Of a stretch of 64,000 bases of DNA, positions 14,738 through 62,308 are shown piece by piece. The translations under genes were made by a program, and so were the position numbers. The DNA lies in NCBI GenBank assembly GCA_030710605.1, contig CP092884.1, positions 18,643,483-18,707,482 on the forward strand. Reading direction: 5' to 3'. The DNA is from Cordylochernes scorpioides. Lineage: Eukaryota > Arthropoda > Arachnida > Pseudoscorpiones > Chernetidae. The notes beneath the pieces were generated by a model. The model saw nothing but the letters and a program-made list of their open reading frames with translations. It did not search any database and was not told the DNA's origin. The stretch's first letter is position 1. Each line of letters starts with the position of its first letter.

Positions 14738-15601
14738 TTACATGAGGTTTGTTTTAAAACGATCGATGTTAAATAAATCTGGATATAAATGTAGGAATGG
14801 CTGGGAAGTTTGAGGCGGTATAATTCGGAATAGTTGCGTCTCGAAGATATCTGGAGTCAAATGTTTGAATTCACTGAGATATACATCTTGAGACATTCGC
14901 TGTGGGTTTTGAATAAATCGGGTTTGTGGAGGTGTAATGTACAGAACATTCTCTGTGTAATATTTTAATTTATTGACATGTATAGTGTCACTGCCTCTAT
15001 TGAGAGGTTGATTGGGGCGATCTATTCGAACGACATTGAGTGAGATTATTTAAATTATTGTGTATGGTCCAGTAAAATATGGTGCTAATTTACCTGTGTC
15101 GGGATGTCTATAATTTTTGACCAAAATAAGATCATTCACTTCGAAATGTGGTGTTCTGTGCTGCTTATCAAATGTTTCTTTATCTTTTTTATGCTTAATT
15201 TGGGTACGAGAGCGTGCTATCTCTTGATCTATATTAATTTCGGGGTATGGGTTAAGATGAGTTCTTAGATCTGGGGTGATAACATTGAACATTAAGTAGG
15301 TGGGTGGAAAACTGGTGACAGTATGGGGTGTGTTATTATACGTCTGAGTGACGCGTTTAACTAGTTGAGTCCAGGAAACTTTCGGATTTTCTAGATAAGC
15401 TAGTCTGAGTTTGCCTGTAATGGTGGCATTTAAGCGTTCTATTGAACCGTTTGCTTGTGGGTTATTGCTTGTGGTGAGTAGGGGTTGTATACCATGTGTT
15501 ATTAGAAATTTACGGAATTTGTCTGAGGTAAAAGCGGGCGCTCTATCAGATAACACACGTTTTGGAAATCCTTGTTGTAGTACAGTTCTGAGGGTTTGCA
15601 T
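14738..15601 (-). pseudogene. Gypsy integrase, C-terminal two thirds
   Basis: Minus-strand frame reading MQTLRTVLQQGFPKRVLSDR, then integrase core motifs: SDRAPAFTS (second catalytic aspartate) and the NNPQANGSIER block that carries the catalytic glutamate. A chromodomain-less C-terminal region follows (VNDLILVKNYRHPDTGKL, FTGPYTII). A single TAA stop at 15050-15052 interrupts it. In the same frame it resumes (IISLNVVRIDRPNQPL, DTIHVNKLKYY) and runs to a stop at 14738. The HHCC zinc-binding region and first aspartate are missing on the upstream side. The integrase inserts retroelement cDNA into chromosomes; this copy is broken. Confidence 0.85.
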
Positions 15602-17154
15602 GTACGTTAGGGTACTGGTTTACTGGTTAAACTCCCTTTGAGAGTGGTGAAAGCTTGTTGGTAGTTTTATGGTCTATTTGAAAGATGTAGTTTTTTCGGT
15701 GTTCGTAAGTGTTGTGTTTCGACGTTGTTGCGGACTTAGTAAAAAAATGTTATTCAATGATGTCAGGTTTAGATGTGAGTAAAAGTGCGACTTTCGACGT
15801 GGACACGCTTTGGAGTGAGTTGTGTCACAGGCATGAAGGCGTCTTTGTGGCCTGTTAAGTGAGAAAAATTGTTGTGATGCGCTGTGTGACACGAGTGAGT
15901 AAATTGAATGGAAAGGTGTCACGTGAAGTCTTTGTTTTTGGTACAGCATCTAACTTGTTTCACCATGAATAACAAATTTACTAGTCATGGGTGGTGGTTG
16001 TATAAAACACATCGAGATATTTTGGCTGTTAGTGGATGTGGCACGTTTAGTGGCGACGATATGGAGCTTGTGTGGCTCGAGATTGATTTGTTGCTAAGTC
16101 GCGCTCTAATAGATGGTGGCCAATTGTAGAAAGTGATGGGGGAGTGTGTTTAAGTTTGTTGAGAGATATGTGTGGATGATTAATATTTATGCAGGTAAAA
16201 GGAAAGGACGAGGGAGTGAAACTATGTTGGATTTTTAACTTGTTTTGGGGAAGGACAGTTACTTTTCTAGTTGTGATTTTGAAGATATTGTATCTTTCGA
16301 TTTTTTGCAATTTAAAAAAAAAATGCGCTTCACCTATGTTTATTAAAATTTGAATATATTTTTTAAATCGTTGATTATGGTAGTGCGAAAATTATCCTTG
16401 TAAAATGGCAATGGCGTGATAGTGACATATAATTTGAATGGGGTTTTTACATAAAATAGTGAACATAACAATGATTTTTGCAAAGTTTTGAGTATTTGAT
16501 TAAGAAATATGTGTTTTTGTATAAAAATAAGATATTAAGGTTAACACACAAATAAATTTAGAATTATGATTCGAGTAATTTGAAAAATAATGATTTTTTT
16601 TTAAATGTAAAATTGAAAGTAGTGACTTAAAATTTATAAGTTGCTTAAAATAAAGTAAAAAATTGAAAATGAGGGTGTACAAGATTTAAAATTTGAATTG
16701 AAATGAAATAAAAATGGTAAAAATTGATTTAAAATGATTACAGTGAAAATAAACATTAAATTTATGAAAAATCAAGTTATGAGCATGAGAGGAAAGTTAG
16801 GAAGGTTTTTTAAAACTCAGTTTTCATGATTGTTCAGTCAGGAGACTTGGTCAGTCAGGAAGACGTTTAATGTAGAGCCTGTAGATTCTGTTTGGCGATG
16901 GTAGCATGTCGCCTGGAATATGGTTACGTTGTAAGGCCGAAAGGGGAAACTTCTCGCCGGCTTAGTTTGCGGGATTTTCGGCTGTGTCGTTGGGGGGTTG
17001 ACAGCTTGCTCCTGAAATATAGTCTCTTGTTGGGGGAGAGATTGCTCGATCGTTTTGTTGGAATGGCGGGTTGGTTCCTCCATCTTTGCTCTTTCTCGCT
17101 TCTATCTGAACAGGCTTCTTACCTTCTTCGTTGTGGTCATCCTGTCGGCTTTTC
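15602..17154. other. Gypsy interior, no recognisable gag or RT
   Basis: Upstream of the integrase in element orientation. Minus-strand frames at 15674-15949 and 16838-17083 are proline/glutamine/serine-rich and could be gag or leader remnants, but no zinc knuckle, protease or RT motif is visible. The interval is too short for a full gag-pol, so a large deletion is inferred. Confidence 0.45.
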
Positions 17155-18448: not shown

Positions 18449-18919
18449 TTTATTCATCCTCAGTTTGTACAAAGTACATTACATATGGTGATGCAATGAC
18501 ACATGTCAATCATGCGTATAATTATTTATATATGTGTTTCTATATACAACATGACAATCTTGTTATGATCATTAACATTATCTAATGATAATAATAATTA
18601 TTATTATCATTATTATTATTATTATATTATTATTATTATCAACATATATAGTCACGACCGTCATGGGCCGGCCGGTTCTGTCACGGATGCGCGCGCACAG
18701 GGAGGTCACGTGCTCGCCGGCAGCCAACGGGCGCGCGCCGCCGGCATTACGTCATAGATTATAAACACAAGGTAATAAGGCCAAATAAAAAAATAGTGTG
18801 TGATAAGGCACAATTTGGATTATCTACTTATATAATTGCCTTATTCTCTCTGTGTGAAGTTCACTGGGTGAAGTTCACGGATAGATTTTGGTCAGAATGG
18901 ATAAAATAAAAAAAAAGTG

Positions 18920-18991
18920 TCAAAGGATGGGAATCGATCCCACGACCTTCCGCTTACCGGGCAGATGCCATGACCACTAGGCTACCCTGGA
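18920..18991 (-). tRNA. tRNA-like gene, apparent anticodon GGT, inside a Helitron module
   Basis: On the minus strand a 72-nt cloverleaf can be drawn: acceptor arms TCCAGGG and CCTTTGA (6 of 7 pairs, one G-U), D arm starting GCCT, anticodon stem TCTGC/GCGGA, a seven-base loop with central GGT, T stem GTGGG/CCCAT. The A box (TAGCCTAGTGG) and B box (GGATCGATTCC) are near consensus, and a run of eight T follows close downstream, as for a pol III terminator. Base 33 is C rather than T, which is abnormal. It may be a tRNA-Thr-derived promoter captured by the mobile element rather than a working tRNA. Confidence 0.65.
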
Positions 18992-19273: not shown

Positions 19274-19343
19274 TTGCTTTTGGTTCAGTGGTAGAATGCT
19301 CGCCTGCCACGCGGGCGGCCCGGGTTCGATTCCCGGCCGATGT
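19274..19343 (+). tRNA. tRNA-Gly(GCC) pseudogene inside a Helitron module
   Basis: The stretch from ggttcagtggtagaatg to gttcgattcccgg matches metazoan tRNA-Gly. D stem GTTC/GAAT, anticodon stem CTCGC/GCGGG with loop CTGCCAC (anticodon GCC), and T stem CCGGG/CCCGG are all intact. The perfect B box GGTTCGATTCC is present and a run of T follows at about 19345. The 5' acceptor strand (about ttgcttt) does not pair with the 3' strand ccgatgt, so a mature tRNA is unlikely. It is best read as a tRNA-Gly-derived pol III unit carried by the element. Confidence 0.7.
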
Positions 19344-20386: not shown

Positions 20387-22035
20387 AGGTATAAGAAATT
20401 ATAATTTAAAACTACTCAATAAAGAAAAACCGATGGTTATGATTACTGAAGTTAACGACTTAATTGACAAATTAAAACCAAAGAAATCTCCCGGAATAGA
20501 CAACATCTCTAACAACATGATAAGGCACACTAAACAATTTATAGCTCCTATATTGGTGAAACTATTTCAAAAATGTTTAGACCTACAATACTATCCTGCT
20601 GAATGGAAAAGAGCAGAGGCATTAATTATTCCGAAACCTGGAAAAACAGATTTTAATAACTACAAAAATTATAGACCTTTATGTCTTAATTCAAACATTT
20701 CTTAAATATTTGAAAAAATAATTAATAATAGAATAATAAAATATTATGAAGATTTTAATCTACTAAGTGATCGACAACATGGCTTTAGAAGATCGAAATC
20801 TACTATTACTGCACTAACTGAGATAAAAAAAATTGCGTTAGAACATAAAACAAGAGAATATGCAGCAATAATTGCAGTGGATATTAGTGCAGCGTTTGAT
20901 AATGCATGGTGGCCGGCCTTGATGAAAAGACTAGATGAAGATGGTGTGCAGGCTTCAATGATAAAACTTCTACAATCATACTTTGATAATAGAATATTAA
21001 GACTTAGATATTCTTCAACTGAAATTAATAAGAAACTAAGTAAAGGATGTCCACAGGGAGGACCACTGTCTCCCACATTATGGAATATTCTTATTAATGA
21101 GATACTGAATAATAATCTGGATGATAACTGTGAAACAATAGGATATGCAGATGATATTACGTTAATATGTTGGAATAAAACTCCTGAACAACTAAGAAAG
21201 ACAATAGATAACGTATTAAGAAAAATCAATGAGTGGTGTGAAAGTCGTAAATTAAAATTGTCAGATGAAAAAACAAAAATATTATATTTATATAAATGCA
21301 ATAGCGATATAATAGTATCAGGTAGCAAGTTAATTAAACCGGTTGAAGAACTTAAGATCCTAGGAGTGACTATTAAAAATCACCGAGTCAGAAGCAAACT
21401 GGACTTTACGCCTCACGTTAATGAAACAATCATAAAAGTAACTAGATACCTATTTGGCCTGACAAAGAAAGCATGGGGTCTAGACTTTAGACGAAGACTG
21501 ATACTGTATAAGACATTATATCGAAGTACAATTACATACGGTTATCCAATATGGTATCCATTCATAAAAAAAAAAGTCTAAGGACAAACTAAATTCTCTT
21601 CAATATAATATTTTAAAACATTGTATACAGGCCTGCAGTACAACATCATCGGATTGTACACACATACTTGCACAAGTCCCCAAACTTACTGAATATATTG
21701 AATCTAACATGTTGAAAACCGAAATAAATTACAATCGATTTGACTCTTCAAGTAGGAATATAATTTCTAATTATATAAGGGAAAAATTGCAGAAATACTA
21801 TGAGAAGACTAACACAATTTTCAAGTCCTTCTTTACTGATTCCCAAATACCCAAATATGTCAAGCCAAATTTTTACAACGTTCAATTTTTTACTGGACAC
21901 TGTAACTTTAGATCATATTTGTACAAGGTCAGAAAGACGGATTCGCCTAAATGCTCATGTGGTGCAGAAGAAGAAAATCCTGTACATATTCTAACGGACT
22001 GTCGACTTGTAGAGGACTTGAGAGTCAAAAATTAA
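20387..22035 (+). pseudogene. R1-like reverse transcriptase, broken
   Basis: RT palm motifs are clear: KPKKSPGIDNI, ALIIPKPGK, a GFRRSKSTITAL block, motif A VDISAAFDNAWWP (aspartate present), GCPQGGPLSPTLWN, and YADD at about 21145-21156. Downstream comes ILGVTIKNH and the thumb region. After a frameshift at about 21580, the C-terminal zinc-like segment CSCGAEEENPVHILTDC follows (near 21955-22005). One in-frame stop lies at 20703-20705. The DxxxAFDNAWWP form and GCPQG pattern point to the R1/LOA part of the I superfamily. The endonuclease half is missing, so it cannot move itself. Confidence 0.85.
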
Positions 22036-29402: not shown

Positions 29403-30716
29403 CAGGGTGCGGTAGATAAGTAATGAGACTGCCCGCCGCGCGGCGCCCCAGTCGGTCGCAGTGCGTTCTCTACCTGCAGGTCACGTGGTGTGTGTGGGGG
29501 ATCTGAGCTAACAATAGAACCGGTTCGCAGTCGCGTCGTAGCTCTGGCGCAGTGAGGGTCGAGCTTCGCGTATTACGTTGTTTGTGTGCCCGTGACACAT
29601 GTGAAAACGCTGAAGATGAATCGCTCGATAGAACAGCGGTATGCAATCAAATTTTGCTTTCGCTTGGGCAAAACTGCTTCGGAAACTTTTGCTATGATTA
29701 CGGAGGCCTACAAAGACGCCCTATCAAGAGCTCAAGTGTTCCGGTGGTTTAATGAATTTAAAAACGGGAGGGAATTCGTTGAAGACATGGAACGATCTGG
29801 ACGCCCTTCAACGAGTCGTGTGGATCAAACGGTGGCCAAAGTGAAAGAACTCCTGGACTCCGACCGTCGTTTAAGTCTCAAAATGATCGCCTATGAGGTC
29901 TCCGTGAATAAATTTACGGTTCACCAAATTATTACGCAAGATTTGATGATGAGGAAAGTTTGCGCAAAATTGGTTCCCCGAGTGCTCACCGCCGAACGAA
30001 AGCAACGACGAGTGGACGTTTGCCGTGAGATGTTGAATGAATTGGAAAATAATCCAGACTTTTTAGACAATGTAGTAACAGGCGACGAATCGTGGACATT
30101 CCAATACGACCCGGAGACGAAAGCCCAGAGCTCGGAGTGGCACACACCGGCATCCCCGCGGCCGAAGAAAGCAAGAATGTCAAAGTCCCGAGTCAAGACA
30201 ATGCTGATTGTGTTTTTCGACAAGCGGGGGTTAATTCACAAAGAGTTTTTCGCTCAGGGGAAAACTGTTAATGCCGAATTCTACAAAGAAGTCCTTCGGC
30301 GATTGCACAAAGCCGTTAAACGGAAGCGACAGGACCTTGCTCAACGCTGGCGTCTCCACCACGACACAGCGTCCTCGTGACCTCCTATTTGACCCGAATT
30401 GGAGTTGATGTTCTGCCACAACCACCATACAGCCCTGTCATGAGTCCTCCTGAATTCTTCCTAATTTCGAAAGTAAAAAGATGCCTAAAGGGTCATCGTT
30501 TCGACGATATCCCGAACCTCCTACGTGCTGTCACGAAGGCACTAACTGGGATAACTCCAACGGACTACAGTGGGGCCTATTAAGCTTGGAAAACGCGCTG
30601 GCAAGTTGTGTCGACGCCCAAGGCGAGTTCTTTGAAGAATATTAACGTTTTGTACCAATCGGATCAATAAATTTGTTTTTCTTGACTGAGTCTCATTACT
30701 TATCTACCGCACCCTG
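29403..30716 (+). mobile_element. mariner transposon, 1314 bp, intact inverted ends
   Basis: CAGGGTGCGGTAGATAAGTA at 29403 is mirrored exactly at the right end up to 30716; the inverted repeats are 28 bp and perfect. TA flanks both sides (29401-29402 and 30717-30718). The perfect ends suggest a fairly recent insertion, but the transposase is frameshifted. Confidence 0.95.
29616..30645 (+). pseudogene. mariner transposase, frameshifted, DD34E-like third site
   Basis: ATG at 29616 begins MNRSIEQRYAIKF. Helix-turn-helix N-terminus with FRWFNEFKNGRE and GRPSTS, a second HTH with MIAYEVSVNKFTVHQI, then the catalytic blocks VTGDESW (first Asp, about 30079), HHDTAS (second Asp, about 30358) and YSPVMSPPEFFL (about 30430). 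Mariners normally have Asp in the last block (PCDYF or PPDFF); here it is Glu. Lesions: a frameshift at about 30375 directly after HHDTASS, a TAA at 30581, and a further shift before the expected end GEFFEEY at 30645. It would excise and reinsert mariner DNA at TA if intact; this copy is not functional. Confidence 0.9.
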
Positions 30717-31735: not shown

Positions 31736-32383
31736 ACATCACATCCCTATCTCATAACAGCAGATATAGCATACGCATCGAATATTAAGTGCCATTGATG
31801 TGCAAGTATAAAGGGATAATTTTGAATACATAAACATTATATAACTCTTCCAAGTTTTTCTTTATTGAGATTAAAATACAATAGAAATGTCATTTTCAAA
31901 TATAATAATTATCTTAACTTTCAAAAATCTGTAAATATGTATATAAACATGTTGATGTGAGATAAGTAATCACGTCGGATGACTAAAGTTGTGGGGAAGT
32001 GTAGACGGGGGTGGAGAACCACACACAGCAGATCTACGGATTCCATGAGGTCAGACGGAGCAAGCGAAGGTTTAATATTGTAGTTTTTCTTATTGATAAC
32101 CTCAAATCTCAGACACCTCAAAGGATAAGCCTTTATTTAGACAATACAACTAAACTTCAGCGCACTAATATAAAGTATACATGTAATATATACATATAAA
32201 ATATACATAAACAATTGATTAATTACAAGGTTTGAGTAGATGTTTAAAGAAGAAATTAAATGAAAGGACATTGAAATCATGCTTGAATCCACATCCTATC
32301 CAGTAACAATCACAATGAAATAAACACAAATATATGAAAAATAGTACAAAAGTGAATTTGTACTTGGATCAAGTGGATAAATT
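31736..32383. other. No gene seen
   Basis: AT-rich unique-looking DNA between the satellite and the foldback element. Confidence 0.4.
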
Positions 32384-32502
32384 GAGAAAAATGGCATTTC
32401 CTGATCGGCGCAAGCCATCTGTTGGAATAAATATAAGCAAATCGTTGATTTTTTAATTATTCCAGAATTGGCCAAATACCTTTTCTTGATTAATCAAGAA
32501 AA

Positions 32503-32554
32503 GCTAACCACGTACGCGTTTCGGGCTGTTGGCCCTCGTCAGCGTGGTGCAAGC
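32503..32554 (-). ncRNA. Type I hammerhead ribozyme, complete core
   Basis: Minus strand, 5' to 3': stem I strand ACCACG, core CTGACGA, stem II GGGC with loop CAACA and GCCC, core GAA, then A-C-G-C-G-T-A, where A15.1/C15.2 can pair with G16.2/T16.1 and A17 is the cleavage base (GUA triplet), then CGTGGT pairing perfectly with ACCACG, and an outer GCT/AGC helix across a small bulge. All conserved core bases are present. Stem III is only two pairs, but ACGCGT is self-complementary, so two RNAs could build a six-pair helix, as proposed for other minimal type I hammerheads acting as dimers. Self-cleavage is inferred from structure only. Confidence 0.82.
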
Positions 32555-32701
32555 TCTACCTCAACGACCAAAAAAGGTGGTCTTTGGGGGCAGCTTGAAA
32601 AACCATGAAACAGGTATTTAGGCCGGAAGGGCGTGAGAACGCCAAAATTCATGGTTTTTCAAGATGCCCCAAAGACTACCTTTTTTGGTCGTTGAGGTAC
32701 A

Positions 32702-32752
32702 GCTTGCACCATGCTGACGAGGGCCAACAGCCCGAAACGCGTAGGTGGTTAG
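32702..32752 (+). ncRNA. Type I hammerhead ribozyme, second arm
   Basis: Same motif on the plus strand: CTGACGA, GGGC/GCCC stem, GAAACGCGTA with the GUA triplet. Stem I is ACCATG with GGTGGT, leaving a G-G mismatch next to the cleavage site and a U-G pair, so cleavage is probably weaker than in the left arm. Confidence 0.72.
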
Positions 32753-32959
32753 CTTTTCTTGATTAATCAAAAAAAGGTATTTGGCCAATTATGGAATAAT
32801 TAAAAATCAACGATTAGTTTATTATTTATTACGAAAGATGGCGCAAGCCATCAGCAACTTTTGGTTGCACGATCAGAAAATGCCCTTTTTCTCATGCAAA
32901 TATATTTACATAGTTTAGCAATTGCGGTTTTTTTTAACCAAGAGAGAAAATCATAGATA

Positions 32960-34800: not shown

Positions 34801-35008
34801 AAACCAACGAATATTATTTTTTTATTATTATTTTAGTAGTCGCAGTAATGATATATTTTCAATATTTATCCTTAAATTCCTTTTGCACTTCAAAATTCGT
34901 GAATGGCCTATATTTCCATTTGAATAGCCTTTATCTTCATTTACCTATATGTGTATACGGAATTTCTTAGTGATTAATTCAGTAGTTTAGGAGGGGGGGA
35001 GAGAATAC

Positions 35009-35261
35009 CGGCCTAAATACCTGTTTCATGATTTTTCAGAATGTACCAAAAACCAGCTTTTTTGGTCGTTGAGGTACAACTTGCACAACGCTGATGAGCG
35101 CCAACAGCCCGAAACGCGTACTTGGTTAGCTTTTCTTGATTAATAAATAATGGGTATTTGGCCAATTCTGGATAAATTCAAAATTAACGATTAGTTTATA
35201 TTTATTCCATAGATGACGCAAGTCATCAGCAACTTTTAGTTGCACGATCAGGCGATGCCTT
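35009..35261 (+). ncRNA. Single foldback arm with an imperfect hammerhead
   Basis: Same module order as the right arm of 32384-32893. The core CTGATGA (35091), GAAACGCGTA and the GUA triplet are intact. Stem II is GCGC/GCCC with one mismatch, and stem I (ACAACG with CTTGGT) has two mismatches. The ribozyme is probably weakened or inactive. Confidence 0.65.
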
Positions 35262-35458
35262 TTTTTTTAATATAACAAAGAATTGATTCATTTTTTAAAA
35301 ATAATTCGTAAAGGTTAAAGTAACCAACACCTAGCAGTGACATAGTGACAGTAGCTTATTGTAAGGCTGTAATATTATATAGAACATTTTCACTTTTATA
35401 CAATTTCACTTTTGCACTTTATTTTTCCTTATTATATATTTAACAAAAAATAGAGCCT

Positions 35459-49007: not shown

Positions 49008-50754
49008 TTGAAGCAAAGGGAAACAAAGCAAGAGGTCGAAGAGTTTCAAAGGTCTGCCACCGAGATTATGGAAGAGGCGAAAATGAACTTAAGAGGGTGG
49101 AAGTATTCCTTTGATGATACCTCAAGAGAAGAGCCTTTAACCAGAGTTTTGGGGATCGTCTGGAACAAAAGGGAAGATACATTAAAATGTGAATTCCCTG
49201 AAAAGGTGAGCCTTCCCTCAAGATTAACAAAACGAATAGTGCTGTTAGTGGTTTAGCGAATATTTGATCCACTTGGATTTTGTGCTCCAGTACTCGTAGC
49301 ACCAAAATTATTGCTGCAGCGATCTTGGGATTTAAAAATAGGGTGGGATGCACCATTGCCTGAAAGTATGGCTCGTGAGTTTAAAACTTGGTGTGAGCAA
49401 ATGAAATTCATTGATTTAATAGGGATACCTAGATATATGTGGAATGATACTGTGTTCCCCACAGAAATTCACATCTTTTGTGACGCCAGTCAAGTGGCTT
49501 ATGGGGCAGTCGCCTATTTAAGGAGTGATGTGGATGGAAGATGTAATACAACTTTGATATGGAGTAAAGCAAGATTTGCGCCAATAAGAAGGATTACAAT
49601 CCCTCCACTGGAATTGATGGTCATGATACTGGGATCTAGATTGGCCAACTCTATTCACAATGCTCTGAAAAGAAAATGTAAAATAACTCTTTGGTCTGAT
49701 TCATCTACGGCCTTGAGCTGGATAAAGAGAGATATAGAATGGCGGGTTTTTGTAAGAAACAGGGTTAAAGAAATTCAGTCTACTACCAATTTGAACGATT
49801 GGAGGTTCATACCAGGACACTTGAACCCAGCTGATCTTTTGTCTCGAGGATGCTCTCCATGCCAGTTTGTGCGAAGTAGATGGTGGGAGGGCCCCGGGTG
49901 GTTGAAAGAACCTAAAAAATCATGGCCTAAATCGGAGCCTACGATAGATCAGCAGGAAATATGTTCTGAGGAGAAGATTGTGAATACAAATATTAATTTA
50001 AACGTAGATTGTAAGGATTGGTTGTTGAAAAGATCTGACTATCATCTCAACATCAGAATAATGTCTTATGTTTTAAGATTCATAGGGAAACTTAAAAAGC
50101 AGTTCACAGAAAAAGGTCCTTTGACAGTGTCTGAGTTGGAATTTGCAGAAAAGAGACTTGTTGGGGTGATTCAAGAGATGGTGTCTATAGAGAGATTGAG
50201 TTCTATCAAGGGTTTGAAGATCTTTAAGAACTCTGAGGGCCTATGGTGTGTTGAAAGTAAACTTTTGCATGGGCAAGTCCCAGAAGAGTTCAAAACTCCA
50301 GCCATTCTGCCTGGAGGTCATCCCTTTGTGGAACAACTAGTTTGGGAAATGCACACAAAAAAGGGTCATGCAGGAGTTTAATTTATTTTGTCAACATTAA
50401 GGGAAAATTTTTGGATAATCAGGGGAAGAAAAACTATAAAGAAAATCATTAGTAAGTGCATAGTTTGTAAAAGGTTCAAGGAAAAGGCTCTGCAAAGACC
50501 AATGACAGCTCTGCCTGCGAGTAGAATTGGACTTGGAAAACCTTTCCAAAATACTGGAGTTGATTTATTGGGACCTCTTTATTTGAAAGATGGCAGAAAG
50601 GTGTGGGTAGCCGCCTATACTTGCGCGGTCTATCGCGCCATACCTTTGGAATTGGTTGAGAATTTAGAGGCAGGAGCCTTCATGATGGCCCTCCATGGAT
50701 TTATTGGTCGAAGATTTAATTTTGACTATTTCTTTGTCAAAATTGGTAGGAGTA
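49008..50754 (+). pseudogene. BEL/Pao pol: RT end, RNase H, integrase start
   Basis: One frame runs from the LTR boundary to 50754, broken only by TAG at 49254 and TAA at 50379. Blocks: FQRSATEIMEEAKMNLRGWK (end of RT), the Pao-type segment IFDPLGFCAPVLVAPKLLLQ, RNase H motifs EIHIFCDASQVAYGAVAY (Asp), PPLELMVMILGSRLA (Glu) and LWSDSSTALSWIK (Asp), and FIPGHLNPADLLSRGC. Then come the integrase HHCC finger (MHTKKGH with CIVC) and the start of the integrase core (GVDLLGPLY). Gag, protease and the RT active site lie outside, lost on the left; the integrase core ends where an LTR-like sequence begins. Only two stops suggest moderate age. Confidence 0.9.
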
Positions 50755-57230: not shown

Positions 57231-57635
57231 AAACTAACATTCAACGTGTAAACAAACCAAGTGTTAAATATTAACCAATCAAATTCATTTATCGCCGCGA
57301 CCAGTGCTGCGCTCAAGCGGTAAAAGGCTGGAACTATCGCTTTTTGGTTTTTTATTTTTTTTAAAAAGCGCATTAACTTTTTTAGTTTTTTGAATAGCCT
57401 ATATGTTAAACGAAATCTTCAGCTACCTACATGCGAAATTTCATAATGATTGATCCAGTAGATTTTGCGCTACGCGATAACAAACATCGATTTTGGATTT
57501 CATTTTTATAGATATAAGGATTGAAATGTGTGAGGTTTTAAGTTAGTTATTAGGCTATAATACATATAATTTTTCGTTTTTTAATATCAACACCAGACCT
57601 TTTTTTTTCTATTTATTAATATTTTTTTCACATTA

Positions 57636-57907
57636 ACAGCGTATTTACACAAACTTTGCCTTAAATACCCATTTCTTGATTTCTCAGGAAGCCTCTGGGA
57701 CCAAATTTTGATTGTAAAGGTACAGCCTGCACCATGCTGACGAGGGCCAACAGCCCAAAATGAGTATGTGGTTGGCCTTTCTTGATTTCTCAAGGAATTG
57801 GGTTGGCCAAATAACACAGAACAAGTTAAATAAACATTTAGTTAATATTTGTTTCTCTAGATGGTGCTCTGCCATCTTAAATGCTCATGTGAGCCGTCAG
57901 GATATGA
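57636..57907 (+). ncRNA. Foldback arm with a dead hammerhead
   Basis: Same module as at 32702 and 35009. CTGACGA at 57737 and the GGGC/GCCC stem are kept, but GAAA has become AAAA and ACGCGTA has become ATGAGTA. The essential G12 is lost, so self-cleavage is not expected. Confidence 0.6.
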
Positions 57908-58708
57908 CTTTTGTTTTTAATATAATATCAGGTAACCTTTTTACTTAAACCGACTATATAATTCATCACCTCTCTTATTCAACCAATATTTCACTCATCT
58001 GTCTATTTATTTTAATTAATTATAATTCAACGTCGACTTTAATTCAACTGAAAATTCTGAACCTTTCAAGTGTTGAATTAAAGAGAAGTTAGACTATTTT
58101 AAGATATATTTTATTAGAGATGACATGGCTTGTAAGTGGCAAACATTGAGGTGGGAAGGAATGGTATTAACAATTGTAGGCCTCTTGTAGATGTATGAGT
58201 ATCTAACAAGCTAATCTCCCTCAGTAGTTAAACCAGTGAGTGAACACAAATAACAAGTTGATGGAGAACTTGAATTAAACTTGTTTTCATTAGTTGGTGC
58301 TATGTACTTGCTGGGGGAAAGCTAAAAATGTCAGCCCAATTGAATTAACCCTATAATTATAATTATAATTATAATTAGAAATATATTTTGTTTACTAAAA
58401 CATTGTACATGTTAACTTATTTCTTAATATTTGTAATTTTAAATAATCAATTCGAAAATCAAAACATTTATTCAGATCGAAGGTTCAAATTTTTGCTAAA
58501 TAAATTTGAAACTATTTAAAATTTGTAAAATAATAATTAATTAATTAATTAATTTTAAACTAATAATTTACTTAACACTATCAACATTTATCAATAGTAT
58601 GACATAACCTATAAACTCAGTTTCTCAACTTTTGTGTCAATCTAACAATTAATCAATCAATCATAGTTTACGATAATGAAATATCAGTGTACAATTATTT
58701 ACCTTTAT

Positions 58709-59115: not shown

Positions 59116-59978
59116 TCATTTACAACGGTGATTCAGCGCGCATACTCCATGCAATCCCATTTTGCACCCAGAACAAATAGTTCTGGATTTTCTTTTCTCT
59201 CCTCGAATCCTACACTCAACGCACTGTCGTTCCTTTTTCTCGGTCAATTTTTCCAATTGAATATTGCTGCTGGTGGTTGCTGATGAAGTAGATCCCTTGA
59301 TAGTGCCCTCTACAAGGCTATTTATCACTGAGACCTGGTATTTCTGCCTGGTCAGCTTGGGAGAATCACTTGAATGTTGACTGTATAGGATGTAGGAGTT
59401 CAGAAGAGCTCTGTGTATTATGTTTATGACAACCTTTCTGTGATGTTTACGGCCCTTTCTCTCATCCATATAGCAGTGCATCATCATATCACTCAGGTCA
59501 ACACCGCCCATGTATTTATCATAGACGGTTTTGACCTGAGGATATAAATGATGGGGGTCTCTTGAACTACCAGGTTTGGTCTCTGAAACGGCATCACAAT
59601 AGGTGCTCAGGAAGTTTATTGATTTTCGTTTAGCTTTTTCTTTGTATGCTGCTGCTAGCTGCATATCACTTTTCATATAGATGACTTCATCTACATGTAG
59701 GGAGGCTCTTTTCAAAGTTTTGGGGTAGCCTCTACGATTGGACCGTATAGTTCCAGTCAGATAGGTCTGTTTACCAGCTAGGTCTTTGGCAAGGTCCACA
59801 CTGGTGAAGAAGTTATCCATTACAACATGATAACCCCTTCCTATCATATTTTTGAGGAATTATGGTCACCATATTCACTCCCAGTTGGAGTGGAAATGTC
59901 TAAATCTTCTGTAGAATTGGAAGTGAGTTCATCAGAGCTAAGTTGATAAATTTCAGTTTCTTCACCACTTTCTGACAT
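59116..59978 (-). pseudogene. piggyBac transposase, middle deleted
   Basis: ATG at 59978 starts MSESGEETEIYQLSSDELTS, an acidic N-terminus usual for piggyBac. After about 41 residues it jumps out of frame into MIGRGYHVVMDNFFTSVDLA at 59847, which holds a catalytic Asp (VVMDNFFTS). Then come TYLTGTIRSNRRGYPK, KYMGGVDLSDMMMHCYMDER (another conserved Asp region) and a C-terminal cysteine-rich finger CVECRIRGEKRK to CSGCKMGLHGVCALNH. About 250-300 residues carrying the earlier catalytic Asp are missing. The enzyme would mobilise DNA at TTAA; this one cannot. Confidence 0.9.
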
Positions 59979-61060: not shown

Positions 61061-62308
61061 TTGGGAGTACAAATAGGTTTTGAGGGATTTGCAAAAGAAG
61101 CCACAACAAATATTATATAAATAGCATCAGACCTTTTAAGGTGTCATGTTAAGGCTTCATCATTTCCCCAAAAAAATCAAAAGGAGTCTTTTCACTCAAG
61201 TGTAAGGAACATTTTTTTGGTGCTCTAACCATGTCAACCTTTGTGCCAACAAAACACAATTTGCAGGAAGCGCTGCTTTTTTGTTTTAATTTGAAGAAAA
61301 GTGCAGCTGATGACATCGATTGCTGTGTGAGGCATATGGGGAACATGCTCTATCAATAAAAGCATGTGAGTACTGGTTTCGGCATTTCAAAAGTGGCGAT
61401 TTTGACACCAGAGACAAAGAATGCGGAGGGAGGCCAATAAAGTTCGAAGACACTGAGTTAGAGGCTTTATTAGACGAAGATTCAAGCCAAACTCAAGAGG
61501 AGCTCGCTGAAACCTTGGGAGTGACTCAACAAGAGATTTCGAACCGTCTCAAGGTCATGGGTATGGTGCAAAAACAAGGAAATTGGGTTCCATATGAACT
61601 TAAACCAGGAAACATCGAGCGCCGTATTTGCACTTGCGAACTACTGCTCAAAAGACAAAATCGGAAGGGTTTTTTTGCATCGAATCGTGACGGGGGACGA
61701 AAAGTGGATTCACTACGACAACCCAAAGCGCAGAACGGCCAAACCGAATATTCATGGCAAGAAGCTAATGCTGTGTTTCTGGTGGGATCAGCTCGGAGTG
61801 ATCTACTATGAGCTACTTCAGCCTAAAGAAACCATTACTGGAGAACGTTACCAACAACAATTGATGCGATTAAGCCGAGCATTGAAGATCAAACGCCCAC
61901 TATATACCAAAAGACATGACAAGGTGATCTATCAGCACGACAACGCTCAGCCACATGTTGCAAAAGTTGTCAAGGAGACTTTGGAGGTGCTTCAATTGGA
62001 TGTCCTACCCCACCCGCTGTATTCACCAGACATTGCTCCTTCAGACTACCACATGTTCCGTTCGATGACACATGGCCTGGCCGAGCAGCACTTTACTTCT
62101 TACGAAGAGGCGAAAAATTGGGTCGATGTTTGGATCGCCTCAAAAGACAAGGAATTTTTTCAACACAGAATCCGTATGCTGCCTGAAAGATGGGAAAAAG
62201 TCGTAGCTAAAGATAGACAATACTTCGAATGAAATATATTGTACTGATTTCTCTGAATAAAGCTTCGAATTTATAAAAAAATCCCTCAAAACTTATTTGT
62301 ACGCCTAA
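61061..62308 (+). mobile_element. mariner transposon, mellifera type, 1248 bp
   Basis: The left end ttgggagtacaaataggttt and the reverse complement of the right end (ttaggcgtacaaataagttt) are imperfect inverted repeats extending through tgagggattt. TA flanks at 61059-61060 and 62309-62310. Divergent ends and a frameshifted transposase indicate an old insertion. Confidence 0.92.
61231..62232 (+). pseudogene. mariner transposase (mellifera subfamily), frameshifted
   Basis: ATG 61231 begins MSTFVPTKHNLQEALLFCFN. After a shift near 61310: EAYGEHALSIKACEYWFRHF, QTQEELAETLGVTQQEISNR (HTH) and QGNWVPYELKPGN. After a shift in the T-run at about 61670: VTGDEKWIHYDNPKRR (first Asp), YQHDNAQPHVAK (second Asp) and YSPDIAPSDYHMFRSMTHGL (third Asp), ending RQYFE at 62232. 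The DD34D triad is intact, but about 11 residues after NPKRR usual in the subfamily are missing. Two frameshifts inactivate it. Confidence 0.92.

Follow-up and report, generated by a model that had tools for sequence, protein, structure and literature searches.

How does a short stretch of non-coding DNA come to carry two hammerhead ribozyme (HHR) motifs that face outward from the arms of a foldback? The question is raised by a locus in the window, the whole 64,000-nt stretch of a Cordylochernes scorpioides contig analyzed here, for which an earlier note had described one foldback element at 32384..32893 with outward-facing ribozymes in both arms, and had taken it for a non-autonomous relative of Penelope-like elements (PLEs). 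Judging from the sequence comparisons set out below, the locus probably arose when PLE machinery, with both target strands acting as primers, inserted a non-coding HHR element resembling animal retrozymes in a single event.

The foldback is a head-to-head pair of unit copies

The two main arms of the inverted repeat, 32450-32589 and 32667-32806, are 140 nt long and 96% complementary. Shorter inverted arms lie outside them, and the outer terminal repeats of 25 nt match at 92%. As both arms also match a descriptor of type I HHRs, a foldback with outward-facing motifs in both arms is indeed present. Its limits are wider than had been given: the real span is 32336-32896, with a tail on one side and a 9-bp repeat at the ends. 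Moreover, the unit also stands alone in the window, and the foldback thus consists of two head-to-head unit copies rather than one element with ribozymes in its terminal repeats. Each arm being a copy of the other, the pair is a single event rather than two. The features of the locus and the further copies in the window are:

32336..32896, no strand: whole insertion of two head-to-head HHR-unit copies (inverted repeats, nhmmer, tail and flanking repeat)
32327..32335, plus: left target-site duplication CAAATATAT (exact 9-bp repeat abutting the insertion end)
32897..32905, plus: right target-site duplication CAAATATAT (exact 9-bp repeat abutting the insertion end)
32336..32646, minus: left unit copy, 3' end at 32336 (nhmmer, tail and flanking repeat)
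32336..32382, minus: tail of 47 nt, left copy only (matches sequence after the unit in other genomic copies)
32499..32564, minus: left-arm type I HHR including outer stem I (strict descriptor; 97.3 bits with a covariance model built from it)
32626..32647, no strand: head-to-head 5' junction, leader GTTCTCACGC on either side (sequence; leader in other copies)
32648..32896, plus: right unit copy, 5' shortened and without tail (nhmmer, tail and flanking repeat)
32692..32757, plus: right-arm type I HHR, predicted cleavage 32743/32744, one stem I mismatch (descriptor; 95 bits with a model built from it)
32837..32852, plus: 3' hairpin 1, GATGGC-GCAA-GCCATC (compensatory change in the 35-kb copy)
32854..32868, plus: 3' hairpin 2, GCAAC-TTTTG-GTTGC (pairing compared among window copies)
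35004..35280, plus: single unit copy, HHR stems I and II mismatched (nhmmer, 8.1e-88)
57652..57933, plus: single unit copy, with the leader included about 57581-57923 (nhmmer; HHR core GAA changed to AAA)

Four copies are found in the window by nhmmer, at 32629-32371 on the minus strand and at 32646-32904, 35004-35280, and 57652-57933 on the plus strand (all E <1e-79). Hairpin 1 is common to three of them, and its pairing is kept in the 35-kb copy by a change from G-C to A-U. Hairpin 2 is paired in two copies, retains two of five pairs in the 57-kb copy, and is deleted from the left copy. The tail sequence is also found 3' of the unit elsewhere in the genome, e.g., in L014, L019, L026, and L034. 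The flanking repeat CAAATATAT was sought only after this 47-nt tail had been recognized, and at least 9 nt were shared by 5 of 5000 random pairs of 18-nt window stretches. With the element limits of the earlier note, the best direct repeat in the flanks was 5 nt long. Around the single copies at 35 and 57 kb, no flanking direct repeat longer than 5 nt was detected.

Inside 32336-32896, there is no reading frame of at least 110 aa, and a frame combining reverse transcriptase (RT) with GIY-YIG is absent from the element. With respect to SINEs, which have a Pol III promoter of tRNA, 7SL, or 5S type, the Rfam search of the element gave no match that reached the gathering score. Elsewhere in the window, tRNA matches above this score lie at 18919-18991 (minus) and 19281-19336 (plus). 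Pfam matches were obtained for six of the ten window frames searched, with integrase, RT, and transposase or peptidase domains of the mariner, Pao, and piggyBac types; these transposon remains occupy 15050-15619, 20706-21578, 29556-30377, 49257-50378, 59116-59859, and 61314-61808. When folded computationally, the left copy (32336-32646) gives an elongated rod tipped by the HHR (-77.6 kcal/mol over 263 nt, a value without shuffle control). The 5' end of this copy repeats, inverted and imperfectly, the segment that follows the HHR.

The genome holds many copies of the unit and two further HHR families

The unit is non-coding and about 310-350 nt long. In the 2.62-Gb assembly searched (24 contigs), its 30-nt HHR core has 1186 exact occurrences, and the reversed control has 0. 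The 30-base core is absent from IMG/VR, and a 21-base part of it is absent from IMG/VR and the GTDB contigs. For this family (family 1), we read 48 of the first 59 places among the 100 core matches listed, all on contig C1; the other 11 places were skipped without a fixed rule, so that intact cores and a single contig are overrepresented. Three couples of loci in it (L029/L030, L043/L044, and L047/L048) look like duplicated segments, and matches overlapping the focal copy by more than 60% were dropped, e.g., in L002. A single unit is present in 27 of these 48 loci. Neighbors within 150 nt are head-to-head in 17 instances (16 loci), tandem in six, and tail-to-tail in one (L041), in which a head-to-head pair is apparently nested in another copy. 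Additionally, 5'-shortened copies occur. Up to 150 nt upstream of the core in L034 and L035, a family 1 copy adjoins a fragment of the second HHR family described below, a junction that is perhaps a template switch.

Outward-facing cores 150-180 nt apart are found at 121 places in the genome, with 0 for the reversed control. Among the 50 distinct outward-facing pairs listed, 43 belong, as judged by eye, to a second HHR family with a unit of 319 nt. We analyzed 30 of the 50 listed places, 24 of the second family (L049-L063 and L066-L074) and six of family 1 (L064, L065, and L075-L078). The arms of the second-family pairs range from about 0.25 to 3.6 units, and tandem units are present in L049, L053, L062, L063, and L066. 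The clearest case is the pair at L053:702-2199, inserted in a TA repeat, where 2.6 units on the left directly abut 2.1 units on the right and the arms are 100% complementary over 638 nt. A third family, related to that of the window, has the stem II GCGC/GCGC and occurs in tandem at L049:2515-3148 and as an outward-facing pair at L055:2993-3405.

Both arms carry the layout of a type I HHR

In both arms, CUGANGA, GAA, and NUH are placed between three stems, with the motif open at stem I, as in type I HHRs. The left motif on the minus strand reads ACCACG-CTGACGA-GGGC-CAACA-GCCC-GAA-ACGCGT-A-CGTGGT. All six stem I pairs (ACCACG with CGTGGT) are formed, in line with the earlier reading of a stem without mismatch; the inner paired stems span 32507-32548, and cleavage is predicted between 32513 and 32512. 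The right motif on the plus strand has the same core, and its stem I, ACCATG/GGTGGT, forms five of six pairs with a G-G mismatch adjoining the cleavage site. We also agree that the stem III sequence ACGCGT is self-complementary; two pairs are possible within one molecule. Small HHR variants of PLEs reportedly cleave as dimers and have a tiny self-complementary stem III.

On both strands of the window, the two arm motifs are the sole matches to a strict descriptor that comprises the core, a paired stem II, the closing pairs of stem III, and at least five of six stem I pairs. In 128 Mb of sequence simulated with a first-order Markov model and read on both strands, the descriptor matched 13 times, corresponding to 0.0065 per 64 kb. 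An Infernal search of the element with Rfam, which had been suggested as a check, gave no hammerhead match at E up to 10, and Rfam hammerheads were found in none of 16 other loci at E up to 0.5. HH9 matches a related family in L049 only, with 31.3 and 25.3 bits, below the gathering score of 52. Folding of the minimal motifs is not clearly better than that of shuffles (z -0.73 for the left, -2.02 for the right, and a further value of -0.26). The four window copies have an outer stem I in common, including one compensatory change from U-A to C-G, and their consensus fold is a rod with the HHR at the tip and an unfavorable covariation term (+2.06); pair counts from these copies are four rows and hence weak.

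With the four window HHRs as its only input, a covariance model (R1) recovers the third family with a best E of 4.6e-18 and the second with 8.5e-8 in a search that covered 8 of 81 sequences, and nothing in the window besides the four copies falls below E 0.67. The stems differ between families (stem I ACCACG/CGTGGT, TCCACG/CGTGGA, and CCTAGA/TCTAGG; stem II GGGC/GCCC and GCGC/GCGC) and are conserved through compensatory changes. Because a window-built model finds two families with different stems, the type I HHR reading is supported. Altogether, the loci and the window contain 75 fully paired HHR instances, 20 of them distinct; cross-family alignments were misaligned at stem III and left out of the counts. 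Covariation in stem I was assessed in 44 distinct family 1 copies. Most pairs stay within the range of the shuffles, one outer pair exceeds it (equaled by 11 of 2000 shuffles), and two more do so weakly (26 and 35 of 2000).

By their sequences, the HHRs of the 35-kb and 57-kb copies, two of the four in the window, are decayed, and that of the 57-kb copy, with AAA for GAA in the core, is predicted to be inactive. The motifs might even be vestigial throughout, the unit moving as a structured RNA recognized by a PLE while its ribozyme is idle. We regard this as rather unlikely, although it would be compatible with insertion by PLE machinery. HHR mutants were without effect on insertion in vitro (PMC11167929), the right arm carries its stem I mismatch, and of the 44 distinct family 1 copies, which had been selected for an intact core, no more than 16 have stem I paired at all six positions. 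However, core and paired stems are kept in three families with different stems, and the model of one family finds the other two with the E-values given above. Activity of the ribozyme is presumed in the insertion favored here.

Arm ends cluster at two sites and pairs tend to carry one tail

In the 24 loci of the second family, the outer ends of the arms cluster at two sites of the unit, A (u32-39) and B (u303-319 or 1-9), which are 36 nt apart and whose ranges were fixed after the ends had been seen. One arm ends at A and the other at B in 18 of the 24 loci, while both end at A in one (L057, with a composite right arm) and at B in another (L069); the remaining four (L049, L067, L068, and L073) have one end elsewhere. 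With an equal chance of A and B for each end, at least 18 mixed loci among 20 would arise with a probability of about 0.0002. The ends of the six family 1 pairs (L064, L065, and L075-L078) are unscored, and L075, L077, and L078 looked decayed. For family 1, the ruler stops at the end of the tail, and many matches ending there do not alone prove site A. By its sequence, the window pair fits the second-family pattern, with its head-to-head order, a tail on one arm, and a short duplication.

A flanking direct repeat with a score of at least 10 is present in 15 of the 24 second-family loci versus 76 of 552 mismatched flank pairs. The other nine loci score below 10, and 144 of the 552 control pairs reach at least 8. 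Many of the loci above the threshold are located in TA repeats, in which such matches arise easily. In L050, L052, L058, L060, L070, and L071, the matches are 14-17 nt long with one mismatch and are not plain TA runs; part of this sequence may belong to the element end.

These ends bear on the class of the element. Foldback and MITE DNA transposons have long inverted arms, as does this locus, and its outer terminal repeats of 25 nt would suit a transposon of that type in whose terminal inverted repeats HHR motifs had arisen by chance. Yet the arms end at unequal positions of the unit, arm lengths in the second family run from about 0.25 to 3.6 units, and fixed symmetrical terminal repeats are lacking in the window pair and in the 18 mixed loci. 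Family 1 moreover includes the 27 single loci as well as tandem and 5'-shortened copies, and we find such a DNA transposon scarcely credible.

The 5' junctions are asymmetric in the 18 loci examined, with 0-11 shared bases or a short filler; gaps of 25 nt and 21 nt occur at the junctions of L049 and L061. Divergence over tiles has a median of 0.6% between sister arms (44 tile pairs, 23 of them from the multi-unit loci L053, L062, L063, and L066) versus 6.9% between loci. The sister arm is the nearest of all loci in only 4 of 22 cases, perhaps because old arms are closer to young near-consensus copies. Derived variants were used after this nearest-neighbor test had come out mostly negative. Their sharing between sister arms is higher than the average over other loci in all 24 cases, and it is higher than with any other arm in 7 of the 24. 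Sister-arm likeness and shared derived variants are as expected if each pair stems from one event with one RNA source.

Penelope-like elements of this genome show the same arrangement

PLE-type GIY-YIG endonuclease domains are abundant in the assembly, with 146 matches among 150 scored (17015 candidates). Neighbors less than 6 kb apart among the 146 matches are outward-facing in 11 cases, inward-facing in 0, and tandem in 0. At L080:681-5636, in a 32-nt minisatellite, both arms of a head-to-head pair encode RT with a C-terminal GIY-YIG domain and are 99% complementary. An HHR-like motif, recognized neither by Rfam nor by R1, lies 3' of the right-arm frame, and its left-arm counterpart has a changed core. 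L079:1-6401 is a palindrome of about 3 kb or more per arm whose ends are not reached and whose frame starts with a GIY-YIG domain; we take this frame to be perhaps a PLE with permuted domains. The HHR units have no match to L080 at E up to 1 and only 22-27-nt matches to L079 (E 0.14-0.39), and neither of these two PLE-type loci, the ones read, yielded a PLE whose ends resemble the unit. The 12-base stretch GCGTGAGAACGC, common to the window junction and L080, was considered as proof of kinship and rejected, as it belongs to the window-family leader.

Of the proposed relation to PLEs, the link to Penelope is strengthened by the tail on one copy, the short duplication, and the head-to-head pairs. 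Descent is not borne out by L079 and L080, the two PLE loci read. As far as these sequences go, the evidence is for mobilization by a PLE, not descent from one.

Perfect palindromes such as L079, with about 100% complementarity over some 3 kb, would be in keeping with an inverted duplication at the DNA level after insertion, by an error of replication or repair, or with a foldback artifact of sequencing or assembly. For the HHR pairs, we consider either origin very improbable, since direct repeats lie at the ends, arm lengths and ends are unequal, and divergence between sister arms amounts to 4-15% in many pairs.

Priming from both target strands would account for the pairs

In the insertion by PLE machinery that we favor, a PLE protein would make slightly staggered cuts in the two strands of an AT-rich target. 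Each of the exposed 3' ends would then prime reverse transcription inside the HHR RNA, the internal sites being A, the far end of the tail, and B, just before the tail. The two cDNAs would run toward each other and their free ends would join, often sharing few bases. In the resulting pair of copies, the 5' ends would meet and the 3' ends would point outward; one side would have a tail, and a duplication of the target would flank the pair. Copy order, tail, duplication, and asymmetric junctions would all be explained by two starts primed from the target, one on each strand and at two sites. As the templates cross the HHR cleavage site and some second-family arms are multi-unit, the RNA was presumably uncut, and either uncleaved multimers or circles could have served.

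Self-priming, in which one cDNA folds back and is copied, would also produce a head-to-head pair. The junction in the window lies in a short palindrome-like leader, GGCGTGAGAACGCC, and in the accessible part of PMC3846280, palindromes at PLE junctions of Adineta vaga are read as self-priming, there on an antisense template. However, self-priming predicts equal arm ends, and the outer ends differ in the 18 mixed second-family loci and in the window pair. Direct repeats at the ends (15 of 24 second-family loci) likewise speak against it, and the asymmetric junctions fit the joining of two cDNAs. We consequently judge self-priming improbable for these elements.

With priming from both target strands, one feature would go beyond published PLE behavior: the tendency toward one tail is, on our analysis, not explained by the PLE of PMC11167929, which uses the same start sites on both strands. 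A more general reading, to which we give slightly less than an even chance, is that PLE proteins insert animal HHR circles by two-sided target-primed reverse transcription. A single RNA, or two of the same kind, would be copied from either end of a cut, with a different start site in use at each, and a head-to-head pair with one tail would result. If true, the two-sided scheme would explain PLE inverted repeats without self-priming or antisense templates.

Comparison with retrozymes, DNA transposons, and Penelope-like elements

Metazoan non-LTR retrozymes were described by Cervera and de la Pena (2020; PMC7229834), who proposed PLEs as their mobilizers; in the accessible part of that paper, the candidacy is presented as strong, on the basis of shared features and co-occurrence. 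The element in the window agrees with the retrozymes as described there in its non-coding unit within 150-450 bp, one type I HHR, and many copies, as well as in target duplications of more than 4 bp and a weak stem III. Tandem copies, which the retrozymes have, occur here in places, but in the family 1 sample they are fewer than copies that are single or head-to-head. The word "inverted" is absent from the main text of that paper as available. Whereas PMC7229834, in the same part, suggests PLE mobilization from shared features and co-occurrence, the insertion signature points to it here. Within the portions of the papers accessible, a literature search (including PMC7761336, PMC8969392, PMC12910113, and PMC8490949; two key PLE papers of 2014 and 2021 lay outside it) returned neither head-to-head retrozymes nor a PLE tail on HHR elements. 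Unlike foldback or MITE transposons, the loci read have no shared symmetrical ends, and their arms are copies of a unit that occurs alone.

The closest parallels are with PLEs. The accessible part of PMC3846280 describes PLEs with inverted pLTRs, most often head-to-head and with a 31-bp tail on one, reports duplications of 8-10 bp in some copies and none in others, and proposes self-priming on an antisense template. The PLE protein PAc cleaves and extends both strands and starts inside the RNA, at sites alike on both strands, and the PLE tail of 30-40 bp is the stretch between two start sites (PMC11167929). The tails found here measure 47 nt in the window pair and about 36 nt in the second family. 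Head-to-head inverted copies, a one-sided tail, a short duplication, an AT-rich target, and an HHR are common to the PLEs of these two papers, as far as their available text goes, and the elements studied here. Unlike PLEs, the window element is without an RT or endonuclease frame, and its HHR has an outer stem I with an internal loop. The signature of PLE-mediated insertion, i.e., head-to-head order, one tail, and a short duplication, is present in full in the window pair and recurs in the second family, in its mixed A/B ends and flanking repeats. For the movement of animal retrozymes, this signature offers a sequence test for any genome, and paired ribozyme-bearing copies point to how orphan elements may move. 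The A/B end rule also makes the origin of PLE inverted repeats testable, with self-priming and priming from both strands as the two candidates.
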